Shown: piece after piece, positions 11,424 to 36,377 of the stretch
Numbering within the stretch: position 1 is the first letter of the stretch
How the letters are laid out: every line of letters begins with the position of its first letter
Source: a virus
DNA length: 43,142 nucleotides
Virus record (IMG/VR): IMGVR_UViG_3300031251_000046
Location: 1-43,142 of that record
Reading direction: 5' to 3' (one strand)
Notes under the pieces: generated by a model
Databases searched by the model: none
Told to the model about the DNA's origin: nothing
Seen by the model: the letters and a program-made list of their open reading frames with translations, nothing else
Translations under genes and position numbers: made by a program

Positions 11424-11448
11424 AAAGAAAAGGCCCCAGATCGGGGCC
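11424..11448 (-). terminator. Intrinsic terminator at the tRNA edge
   Basis: On the minus strand GGCCCC-GATCT-GGGGCC forms a perfect 6-bp GC stem with a 5-base loop, followed directly by TTTTCTTT. It would stop transcripts coming from the integrase and the small ORF below it. Its stem overlaps the first four bases of the tRNA gene on the other strand. Confidence 0.75.
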
Positions 11449-11530
11449 CCTTGGCGGAATTGGTAGACGCCGCGGCTTTAGGTGCCGCTGTCCTCTGGGC
11501 GTGGGGGTTCGAGTCCCTCAGGGGCCACCA
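11445..11530 (+). tRNA. tRNA-Leu (anticodon UAG), CCA encoded; candidate attP
   Basis: The only gene I support on the plus strand. A full cloverleaf folds: acceptor GGCCCCT/AGGGGCC (7/7), D stem GCG/CGC with loop GAATTGGTAGA, anticodon stem GCGGC/GCCGC with loop TTTAGGT (anticodon TAG at 11479-11481), a 4-bp variable arm (11490-11493 with 11497-11500), T stem GGGGG/CCCTC with loop TTCGAGT, discriminator A and CCA at 11528-11530. The long variable arm fits Leu. It lies 138 bases from the integrase stop. Integrases of this type often use tRNA genes as attachment sites, so it may be the phage copy of the host site, a working tRNA, or both. Confidence 0.92.
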
Positions 11531-11675
11531 CCCGAAGCTCTGCGATCTGCTTACACAAGGCGGCGGCCCTGTCCTGCCAGACTTGGGCGCGTTCAGGCTC
11601 GTTTCGCTTGGTCCAGTAGGCGGCCTTGTCCAGCGCAAACTGGTGCGAGTATTGCAGGTCCGCGAGTATCAGCAT
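11478..11675 (-). CDS. Hypothetical protein, 65 aa, ends inside antisense tRNA
   Basis: Reads MLILADLQYSHQFALDKAAY then WTKRNEPERAQVWQDRAAAL, a helical, coding-looking protein. Its ATG overlaps the end of the integrase gene by seven bases. The last 13 or so residues (EGLEPPRPEDSGT) are simply antisense tRNA-Leu, so its C-terminus would change on integration if the tRNA is attP. Function unknown; the 5' two-thirds is the credible part. Confidence 0.5.
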   Translation of the reverse strand: MLILADLQYSHQFALDKAAYWTKRNEPERAQVWQDRAAALCKQIAELRVVAPEGLEPPRPEDSGT

Positions 11676-12685
11676 ACCCCCTCCAATGCCTTCACGGCGT
11701 CTTCCATGTGGGTCGGGGACAGGTGCGAATAGCGCTGCGTCGTGAGGATTGACGCATGGTCCATGAACTTCTGCACCCGGTAGAGGTCAACGCCCCTCTG
11801 GACGAGCCAGGAGGCCGTTGTGTGCCTGAAAACGTGATGCGGGACGCAATCCACCAGGAAAGGCAAATGCGTCTGCAGCCGCCTCCACAGGGCCGTCTGA
11901 GAGCCCTTTGAGACATGCGTGAAGGGGCCAGACTGATCCCGAGGCATCCGCTGCAGCGCGGCGCGCAGTCGGGCCGTGAGCGGGGTGGCTGTGGTGCGCC
12001 CTGACTTACGATCGACGAATGTCACGCGAGGTGCATTGCCGATGTCCACATCCTCCCACCGGAGCTTCTGCGCCTCGCTCAGGCGCGCGCCAGTGTCGAC
12101 GAGGAACAGGTAAAACGTGGCGTCGGTCGGGCGGCCCCACTTGAACAGCAGCGCCTGGATGGCCGCAAACTCCTCGGGCGTCAGGAAGCGCAGCCGACCC
12201 TCACCCTCATGTTGCCAGGAGAGCAGGGGCCGGGCCTCGATCAGGCGCATGTTCGGGTGGACTGCGAACTTGCCGAGCGTCGAGATGGCCGAGAGGTGGC
12301 GATTGACGGTCGCCCCGCTGCGCCCCCTCTTCTCCAGATCGCGGCAATACTCTGCCACTTTCTCGGTCGTGAGGCAGGATGCGGCGCTCGCCTTGGGCCC
12401 GCAGAACTCCGCGAACAGCTCGGCGTTGCGCAGCAGCGTCTCGGCCGATTTCTTCTTGCGCCAATGGGTGGTGCCGACATAGGCGACGAGGCCGCCTATC
12501 GTCGATGGCGAGGGCCCTGGAGAGGCCTTTGAGGGGCTGTCGATCGGCAGCCCCAGAACCAGATTGGCGCGCGCCCGAAGCTCCCAGGCCTCGGCCTCGA
12601 CCTTGCTGGCGAACTCGGGGCGGTAGCGGCGGCCCCCGTATGACAGGTTGACTTGCCACTTCGCCCCGCGTGGAACAACACTCAT
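11669..12685 (-). CDS. int: Tyrosine recombinase / phage integrase
   Basis: Site-specific recombinase for prophage integration and excision, 338 residues. The N-terminal arm-binding region (RYRPEFASKVEAEAWELRAR) and a SAM-like core-binding region (THWRKKKSAETLLRNAELFA) lead into the catalytic domain. Catalytic residues are visible: Arg in DTGARLSEAQKLRW, H-x-x-R in HHVFRHTTASW, His in FMDHASI and the nucleophile Tyr in TQRYSHL. GGAGGTGACCT before ATG 12685 is an excellent ribosome site. It lies between a winged-helix gene and the tRNA-Leu. Integrases are known in a minority of T7-like phages, including pelagiphages and some cyanophages. Confidence 0.95.
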   Translation of the reverse strand: MSVVPRGAKWQVNLSYGGRRYRPEFASKVEAEAWELRARANLVLGLPIDSPSKASPGPSPSTIGGLVAYVGTTHWRKKKSAETLLRNAELFAEFCGPKASAASCLTTEKVAEYCRDLEKRGRSGATVNRHLSAISTLGKFAVHPNMRLIEARPLLSWQHEGEGRLRFLTPEEFAAIQALLFKWGRPTDATFYLFLVDTGARLSEAQKLRWEDVDIGNAPRVTFVDRKSGRTTATPLTARLRAALQRMPRDQSGPFTHVSKGSQTALWRRLQTHLPFLVDCVPHHVFRHTTASWLVQRGVDLYRVQKFMDHASILTTQRYSHLSPTHMEDAVKALEGVC

Positions 12686-34907: not shown

Positions 34908-36377
34908 TTACGGCGTGGACAGCTCGACGGCCGCCTCGGGACGAAGGATGCCGTGACCAGCCGCATACTTGGCGATGAAGAACCAGCCCTGACGGCGGAC
35001 TTCGCGGTCAGCCTCGACAGCTACGTCGAGGAGTTTCACGGTGCCCACCGCGTCCTGGTGGTTCACCGAAGCGACCGTCTTGGTGTAGCTCGCCTGGGCA
35101 GACGGAGAGGTCGTCGCATCGGCCGTGAGATCGGTCGAGGGCAGGTTGGTCGTCTTGATGATCGGGAAGCCCGCCACCGAGTCGATCGAGCCCTGAGCGA
35201 TACCGCCCGAGCCGCCGAGGAACTTGTTCAGGAGGTTCGGGTTCTGCGCGAGGGCGTAGAACTGCGCGGGGCGCACGAACGCCTGACGGCCGTCCTTGCC
35301 CACCCACTTCTCGTCCAGGGTCTGGGCGGCGGCGAAGAGGGCAGCGGTGAGGACGTTCACGTCCGTCGCCATCGCGGCGTTGGTGATCTGGGAGCCACCA
35401 GCTTCACCCGTGATGGTCGCAGCCGTGCGCGCGGCAAGGATGAAGTTGCCGGCGACGTTGCGGTCGAACAGGATAGCGAGCTTGCGGCCCAGCTCCTCGA
35501 CGTAGCGCGAGCGGACTTCGAAGTGAGCCATCGCGTCGTCGATGTCGGCGATGAACGTGGTCGAGGTCAGCAGACCGTCGATCGAGATCACGCGCTCAGC
35601 GGACGAGATCACCTGACCATCGAGGTAGACGCCCGGGGTGTGGTAAGCCGCAGAGGCGCGGCCAATGACGGGAAACTGCTTTCCCGGACCCTTCCTTGCG
35701 GAGGGAGTAGACTATACCTTTGTCCATTCGATCGCACGCTGAAGCGCGATCGGGTCGTCTTTGAGCAGTCCGATGGCTGTGTTGCAACGTGTGCAAAGCA
35801 GACCGCGGATGCGTCCTGTGGTGTGACAGTGATCCACTGCAAACGCCTTATAGCGCTTTGAGTAGAGCCGCTGATCACAAATGCCACAACGACCTCGCTG
35901 CTTGGTGAACATCGAGAGGTAATCCTCCTGCGTGACGCCGAGGGTTCGTTCTCTCTGACTGATGATACGACATGCCTTACACGTCGTGTCGCGTCTACCG
36001 TTCCGGTCCTTCTTGTAGAACTCAGGCTCGGGCTTGTGCTCACCGCATTTTGTGCAGCAGTATGTTGGAAGTGCTTCCCGTCTAGTCGTTACACCTTCGC
36101 GCGTGTTGCGCAGACTTGGCTCGGGATTGCCCACGTGGGGGTTCCCCGAATTTGGGAAGTGTTTAGAGTCGGCCCAGTTCAATTTGGGTTAAGCCGACTT
36201 GCCGGACTTGATCGAGCGAACGAAGTGCCGGTCCTTGAACATCGTATCCTTCTCGAACTGAGCGAAGACCTCGCCCGAGAAGACCTTCAGAAACAGCGCA
36301 AGCGGATCGCCAGCGTTGTTGATCTGACCAAATCTGGAGACTGTGGAGTCTAAGACGCCACCAGTATCAAAAGCCAT
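34908..36377 (-). CDS. Major capsid protein (gp10-like), split by a group I intron: exon 1 36377-36192, exon 2 35678-34908
   Basis: Joined product of 318 residues (62 + 256; T7 gp10A has 345). Exon 1 begins MAFDTGGVLDSTVSRFGQIN and ends HFVRSIKSGKSA; exon 2 continues QFPVIGRASAAYHTPGVYLD, matching the T7 order SGKS-x-Q...AAYLAPG. Later blocks are VISIDGLLTSTTFIADIDDA and RFVRPAQFYAL-type capsid segments. Without splicing, exon 1 stops at a TAA that is the first intron triplet. The join keeps frame exactly (186 and 771 bases). The gene lies downstream of the lysis pair and is followed by a terminator. Confidence 0.93.
35679..36191 (-). ncRNA. Group I self-splicing intron in the capsid gene
   Basis: 513 nt. 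Exon 1 ends in U and the intron ends in G (35679), as the class requires. P1: exon GTCGGCT (36198-36192) pairs with intron GGCCGAC (36174-36168), with U-G at the splice site. P10: exon 2 CAGTT (35678-35674) pairs with intron AACTG (36179-36175), directly beside the P1 guide strand. Core: AATCCCGAGCCAAG is the P4/Q-type motif, and GTGTAACGACTAGACGGG the R-type motif. GACTA pairs with TAGTC just past the ORF (P7). The ORF therefore sits in the P8 loop. The subgroup is not assigned. Confidence 0.93.
35712..36182 (-). CDS. Intron-encoded HNH endonuclease (endonuclease VII-like)
   Basis: Likely homing endonuclease that spreads the intron. Two zinc knuckles (CCTKCGEH and TCKAC), then RGRCGICDQRLY, AVDHCHTTGRIRGLLCTRCN and AIGLL match the endonuclease VII / HNH family, with the catalytic DHCH and Asn of RCN. 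The frame is open from TTG 36182 to the TAG at 35714-35712, but the first 45 or so codons coincide with the intron core. GTG 36134 is the other in-frame start; no ATG exists. The stop TAG lies inside the P7 3' strand of the ribozyme. It would cut intronless capsid genes near the insertion site. Confidence 0.85.
   Translation of the reverse strand: MNWADSKHFPNSGNPHVGNPEPSLRNTREGVTTRREALPTYCCTKCGEHKPEPEFYKKDRNGRRDTTCKACRIISQRERTLGVTQEDYLSMFTKQRGRCGICDQRLYSKRYKAFAVDHCHTTGRIRGLLCTRCNTAIGLLKDDPIALQRAIEWTKV

Follow-up and report, generated by a model that had tools for sequence, protein, structure and literature searches.

Phage group I introns have been described mostly in DNA-metabolism genes. 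In the 43,142-nt DNA analyzed here (the window, which is IMG/VR virus record IMGVR_UViG_3300031251_000046), the frame of a gp10-like capsid gene is interrupted by a stop codon after 62 codons. What is the interrupting segment, and how could a complete capsid protein be made from such a gene?

A removable segment in the capsid gene of a T7-like phage

The preliminary description assigned the DNA to a T7-like phage, and the gene content agrees: the window encodes a single-subunit RNA polymerase, primase/helicase, head-tail connector, scaffold, gp10-like capsid protein, nozzle and large terminase. A complete tRNA-Leu gene (anticodon TAG) adjoins an integrase gene at window 11445-12685, and the phage is probably a temperate T7-like virus that integrates at a tRNA-Leu gene. 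The capsid locus is organized as follows, with a slash marking the splice junction here and below.

36192..36377 (-): capsid exon 1, 62 codons, ending ...SGKSA; placed by junction alignment to intronless capsids
34908..35678 (-): capsid exon 2, from QFPVIG... to the stop; PF21703 Gp10A-like, E 8e-57; spliced 318-aa product
35679..36191 (-): group I intron, 513 nt, TAACCC...GGGAAAG, terminal omega-G; RF00028, 32.6 bits, E 2.2e-6; covariation in 13 introns
36192 and 35678 (-): splice junction, last base of exon 1 (AAGTCGGCT/) and first base of exon 2 (CAGTTTCCC)
36189..36191 (-): TAA stopping the unspliced exon-1 frame, intron bases 1-3

The unspliced frame starts at 36377 on the minus strand and meets the TAA directly after ...SIKSGKSA. 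When bases 36191-35679 were taken out, the frame was rejoined to give 318 aa and a stop, with the SGKSA/QFPVIG motif intact and the peptide SGKSAQFPVIGR across the junction; the intron boundaries originally proposed were exact. By its sequence, window 35679-36191 on the minus strand is a group I intron in a gp10-like major capsid gene.

Uninterrupted relatives of the gene were sought by tblastn, the query being residues 1-245 of the spliced capsid protein. Isolates including Rhizobium phage Pasto, Pseudomonas phage LUZ100 and Bordetella phage BB8 each gave a single unbroken match over about 95% of this query. An intronless relative carrying residues at the insertion point had been named as one case that would count against an intron, and the opposite was found: intronless capsids align straight over GKSA/QFP with zero extra residues there. 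At least 120 stretches of the viral collection carry the capsid DNA motif without an interruption, and the intron-bearing allele is therefore in the minority. Annotated phage records were queried by blastn with three introns, that of the window and those of L024 and L012 (two relatives described below). No isolate with this capsid intron was recovered; the matches were short ones to EndoVII or to P7-P9. None was found in the bacterial genomes searched.

Fold of the intron

The RF00028 covariance search that had been proposed as a check was carried out. In a sensitive scan of 901 nt, the model matched 35689-36247 on the minus strand with 32.6 bits (E 2.2e-6) and was the only family found in the stretch; the E value was 2.5e-8 when this one family was scanned. 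The score falls under the Rfam gathering score of 50, and a gathering-level Rfam scan of the stretch reported no intron. Because RF00028 gives only 34-41 bits for known DNA-polymerase introns of phages, a score below the cutoff is ordinary for introns of this kind. The model also matched in 6 of the 10 records searched (1 of them identical to the window), in 3 of them above the gathering score. The pairings are located as follows.

36192..36199 (-): P1 5' strand, exon 1, AGUCGGCU, final U pairs with G
36167..36179 (-): internal guide sequence, P10 strand AACTG plus P1 3' strand GGCCGACT; 13/13 pairs with the ligated exons
35674..35678 (-): P10 3' strand, exon 2, CAGTT
36154..36159 (-): P3 5' strand, CTTCCC
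36074..36079 (-): P3 3' strand, GGGAAG
36145..36149 (-): P4 5' strand, TCGGG
36121..36125 (-): P4 3' strand, CCCGA
36130..36141 (-): P5 hairpin
36118..36120 (-): P6 5' strand, GCC
36093..36095 (-): P6 3' strand, GGT
36083..36087 (-): P7 5' strand (R), GACTA
35710..35714 (-): P7 3' strand (S), TAGTC; overlaps the ORF stop codon TAG
36066..36069 (-): P8 5' strand, TCCA
35723..35726 (-): P8 3' strand, TGGA, within the ORF
35689..35706 (-): P9 hairpin, GCAA loop

The segment thus combines a P3-P9 core, including the P4/P6 and P3/P7 pairings, with a U.G pair at the 5' splice site, an omega-G and P10, as is diagnostic of group I introns. The five pairs of P10 (AACTG with CAGTT) had been read correctly. 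P1, with its U.G, also holds, at 8 pairs including the U.G rather than the six Watson-Crick pairs plus U.G first counted. The core motifs and P7 (GACTA with TAGTC) had been reported as readable, and P7 is now backed by covariation. The guide at 36179-36167 on the minus strand pairs with all 13 bases of the ligated exons that it faces; among all junctions in the spliced gene, a 13/13 pairing was reached by the true junction and its direct neighbor only.

Group IA (T4-type) introns are marked by extra P7.1/P7.2 hairpins between the P7 5' strand and the P3 3' strand. Assignment to this subgroup was not supported, since P7 and P3 are only 3 nt apart, and the intron was assigned to no subgroup. The minimum-energy fold of the whole 556 nt had a z score of -3.9 against shuffled sequences, yet it was not the group I fold, and we did not count it as evidence.

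Related introns at two sites and covariation

Relatives were found by searching IMG/VR, in uncultured T7-like phages, with the intron ORF. One of them, L003, is 100% identical and comes from a separate contig, of either the same phage or one very close to it. At least 12 others are distinct (L004-L012, L024, L026 and L028); all lie in T7-like capsid genes and have the same core and ORF. Neither these introns nor the ORF had been mentioned in the preliminary description. All 13 intron-bearing genes align as capsid across the junction, and the frame is open across it after splicing in all ten introns checked. The intron lengths among the relatives fall into all three classes modulo 3.

Nine relatives (L004-L008, L010, L024, L026 and L028) use the main site, GCU/CAG or GCU/CAA. 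Three (L009, L011 and L012) use a second site 9 nt, or three codons, upstream, GGU/AAGAGTGC; they represent a natural site shift inside one gene. The guides of the second-site introns fit their own exons at 12 of 13 positions, against 7-8 of 13 for the main-site guides tried on those exons (window and L024). Across the 13 introns, the guide tracks exon changes and is wholly rewritten at the second site. The U.G pair at the 5' splice site and the terminal G are present in every intron, and P10 has 5 pairs in 12 of the 13 (4 of 5 in L010).

In P3, P4, P6, P7 and P9, 15 of 25 pairs had double changes among the 13 introns, with 52 double-change cells compared to 15.3 +/- 3.0 in shuffles. Paired cells amounted to 97.8%, and to at most 43.4% when the partner was slid by one column. 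These compensatory changes support P3, P4, P6, P7, P9 and the pairings with the exons as elements of the predicted structure. P8 was scanned separately; its complementary strands co-change in most introns (e.g., TCCA with TGGA, CAACCAT with ATGGTTG, and GATTCACTT with AAGTGGATC), and it is the least secure helix because the scan chose doubtful strands in L006, L007 and L026.

A predicted EndoVII-type homing endonuclease encoded in the intron

The intron contains one long ORF.

35712..36182 (-): EndoVII/DHHRN homing endonuclease ORF, 156 codons plus stop, TTG start in L1, domain at residues 77-154

The product has an Endonuclease_7 domain (PF02945, E 6e-24). It carries the arrangement CxxC...D-H-x-H...R...CxxC-N of the DHHRN enzymes, a motif set defined for the homing endonuclease F-CphI (PMC6083498); the enzymes of all 13 introns retain D-H-H-R-N. 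Codons in L8 differ by 0.30/0.21/0.60 at the three codon positions, and therefore the endonuclease is selected as a protein. For the N-terminal extension, encoded by the ribozyme core, protein-level selection was rejected (0.28/0.29/0.30).

Several relatives have peculiarities of their own. In both L011 and L012, an in-frame TGA replaces a zinc-ribbon cysteine (CKA*RII), and the two ORFs overall retain codon periodicity when compared with each other (0.09/0.04/0.32); the TGA may reflect recoding, a start at a TTG farther downstream, or decay common to both. The endonuclease frame extends beyond P7 into P9 in L005 and L026, and in L026 the TAG ends exactly at the 3' splice site. Klebsiella phage vB_VIPKPNMC04 (L057, 964-1341) has an EndoVII gene between two internal virion protein genes, its start and stop nearly touching these neighbors; it is a free-standing relative within late structural genes.

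A probable mobile intron and two other readings of the segment

Taken together, the segment is almost certainly a mobile group I intron, predicted to be self-splicing, with an EndoVII-type (DHHRN) homing endonuclease. Its RNA would fold into P1-P10, cleavage would follow the U of the P1 U.G pair, and ligation of the capsid exons would restore the 318-aa shell protein. The endonuclease would most likely cut intronless capsid genes near GKSA/QFP, and repair would then copy the intron in. We infer splicing in vivo, cleavage and homing from the sequences. That twelve relatives lie within a few bases of one another in the same gene points to a moving element. Over 66 pairs, the mean identity was 66% for the enzymes and 50% for the host capsid proteins (correlation, 0.33); for the window and L005, the values were 78% and 40%. 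This gap fits intron transfer between phages, and a slower-evolving enzyme could partly account for it.

Could the segment instead be a decayed intron, or an endonuclease gene in a capsid pseudogene, with the capsid no longer made from this gene? The window endonuclease has neither an ATG nor an evident ribosome site, and its intron scores under the gathering level, which speaks for this reading. However, every pairing and the catalytic residues are intact, the exons are open and full length, the same layout recurs in 12 other contigs, and a second capsid gene did not turn up among the proteins searched. We consider this reading very improbable. Still less credit can be given to an insert that is never spliced and is translated, by readthrough of the TAA, as part of a capsid variant. 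The 513-nt length and the position of the ORF in the exon-1 frame would allow this in the window, but two stops stand in that frame (the TAA at entry and the TAG at the end of the ORF), the relatives' lengths fall into all classes modulo 3, the core codons lack protein-level selection, and the ribozyme pairings covary.

Expression of the endonuclease

In 12 of the 13 introns, the open frame begins at an ATG, TTG or GTG that lies within L1 or adjoins it; some of these starts overlap the exon-1 stop (as ATGA or TTGA), and the farthest is 11 nt past it. From L1 the frame is open for 35-45 codons through P3, P4, P5, P6 and P7; the TGA of L011 and L012 breaks it later. Starts for the window ORF are limited to TTG in L1 or an in-frame GTG in P5, with no ATG. 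The distances from the start to the splice G and from the splice G to P7 shift modulo 3 in L006, L028, L011 and L012 and compensate every time. Because the core codons are aperiodic while these lengths compensate, the core peptide is unselected but the frame is apparently kept. When L1 was shuffled, an open start in the right frame arose in 5-18% of cases for nine introns, the test being uninformative for L006, L009 and L012; since the introns are related, this counts as support and not as a probability.

Ribosomes entering the core hinder splicing, and a stop just inside an intron may protect its folding (PMC2988022, PMC3984707). We infer that the endonuclease is made from unspliced capsid mRNA, by ribosomes that reinitiate just past the exon-1 stop and thereby compete with splicing. 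We further propose, tentatively and at just short of an even chance, a switch set by the ribosomes that finish exon 1 and stop at the first intron codons. Where they depart, the ribozyme would fold and splice, giving capsid; where they restart at the adjacent ATG, TTG or GTG, they would cross the whole ribozyme core and make the homing endonuclease, preventing the splicing of that message. If so, the enzyme dose would be tied to capsid translation without a ribosome site of its own, and the leader peptide would be a by-product of the ribozyme sequence.

With the intron itself unchanged, the enzyme may instead start inside it, using a dedicated ribosome site or an uncommon start codon, the open core frame being inherited chance; we regard this as a real possibility, though appreciably below even. 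L010 has no L1 start and has an ATG after GGAG in L8, the DNA-polymerase introns of LUZ24 and CLB_P1 begin their ORFs in L6, and the window has the in-frame GTG in P5. Against this, no ATG, GTG or TTG was found between the core and the zinc ribbon in the other 12 introns, and in four introns the L1 start and the length of the core shift together modulo 3.

Relation to known introns and significance

The preliminary description presented the capsid location as a departure from the known polymerase-gene introns of T7-like phages. The location is real; group I introns in capsid genes were already known in other phages (PMC3706429). The one in mycobacteriophage LittleE, whose splicing was verified by RT-PCR, likewise lies in the major capsid gene, comes with an endonuclease gene, and has a U before the 5' splice site and a G at the 3' end (PMC3706429). 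It differs in its host phage (a Mycobacterium siphovirus), its length (819 bp), its capsid protein and site, and its LAGLIDADG-like ORF on the opposite strand, unlike the EndoVII-type ORF found here. A capsid-gene group I intron of lactococcal phage Tuc2009 is cited in the same paper (PMC3706429).

The T7-like DNA-polymerase introns (K1F, CLB_P1 and Salmonella CHRF_10037) and that of LUZ24 are also group I, match RF00028 at 34-41 bits, and share a short similarity with the capsid intron at the P7-P9 end of the core; LUZ24 also has an EndoVII-type ORF. They differ in interrupting a polymerase gene, in having the ORF in L6 with its own ATG and in a longer P7-P3 junction, whereas the capsid intron has its ORF in L8 and a frame open through the core. 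DHHRN enzymes in polymerase introns, including T7-like ones, were already known (PMC6083498). F-CphI resembles the window enzyme in its C-terminal EndoVII motif with D, H, H, R and N and in its association with a group I intron, but it is free-standing beside psbA, whereas the window enzyme, of predicted cutting activity, lies inside the capsid intron (PMC6083498). ORFs overlapping a ribozyme core are known in general (PMC3984707). In T4 td/I-TevI, the ORF likewise reaches into the core and translation-splicing competition is expected, but I-TevI has its own ribosome site and a late promoter (PMC2988022), while in the window the frame opens next to the exon-1 stop and spans almost the whole intron. 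In the open-access papers searched, we found no description of T7-like capsid-gene introns or of an ORF that begins in L1 and traverses the whole core, and earlier reports of either are possible; the combination of a capsid-gene group I intron with a DHHRN enzyme, at this site and with this ORF layout, was not found there.

With at least 13 members in the main structural gene of T7-like phages, this intron family shows that podovirus late structural genes have also been colonized, apparently by a moving element that has settled in a gene essential to the phage. The two sites 9 nt apart, with their matching guides, offer a natural set of cases in which to follow a change of intron site, and because a frame is kept through the ribozyme core, the conflict between translation and splicing can be tested directly.
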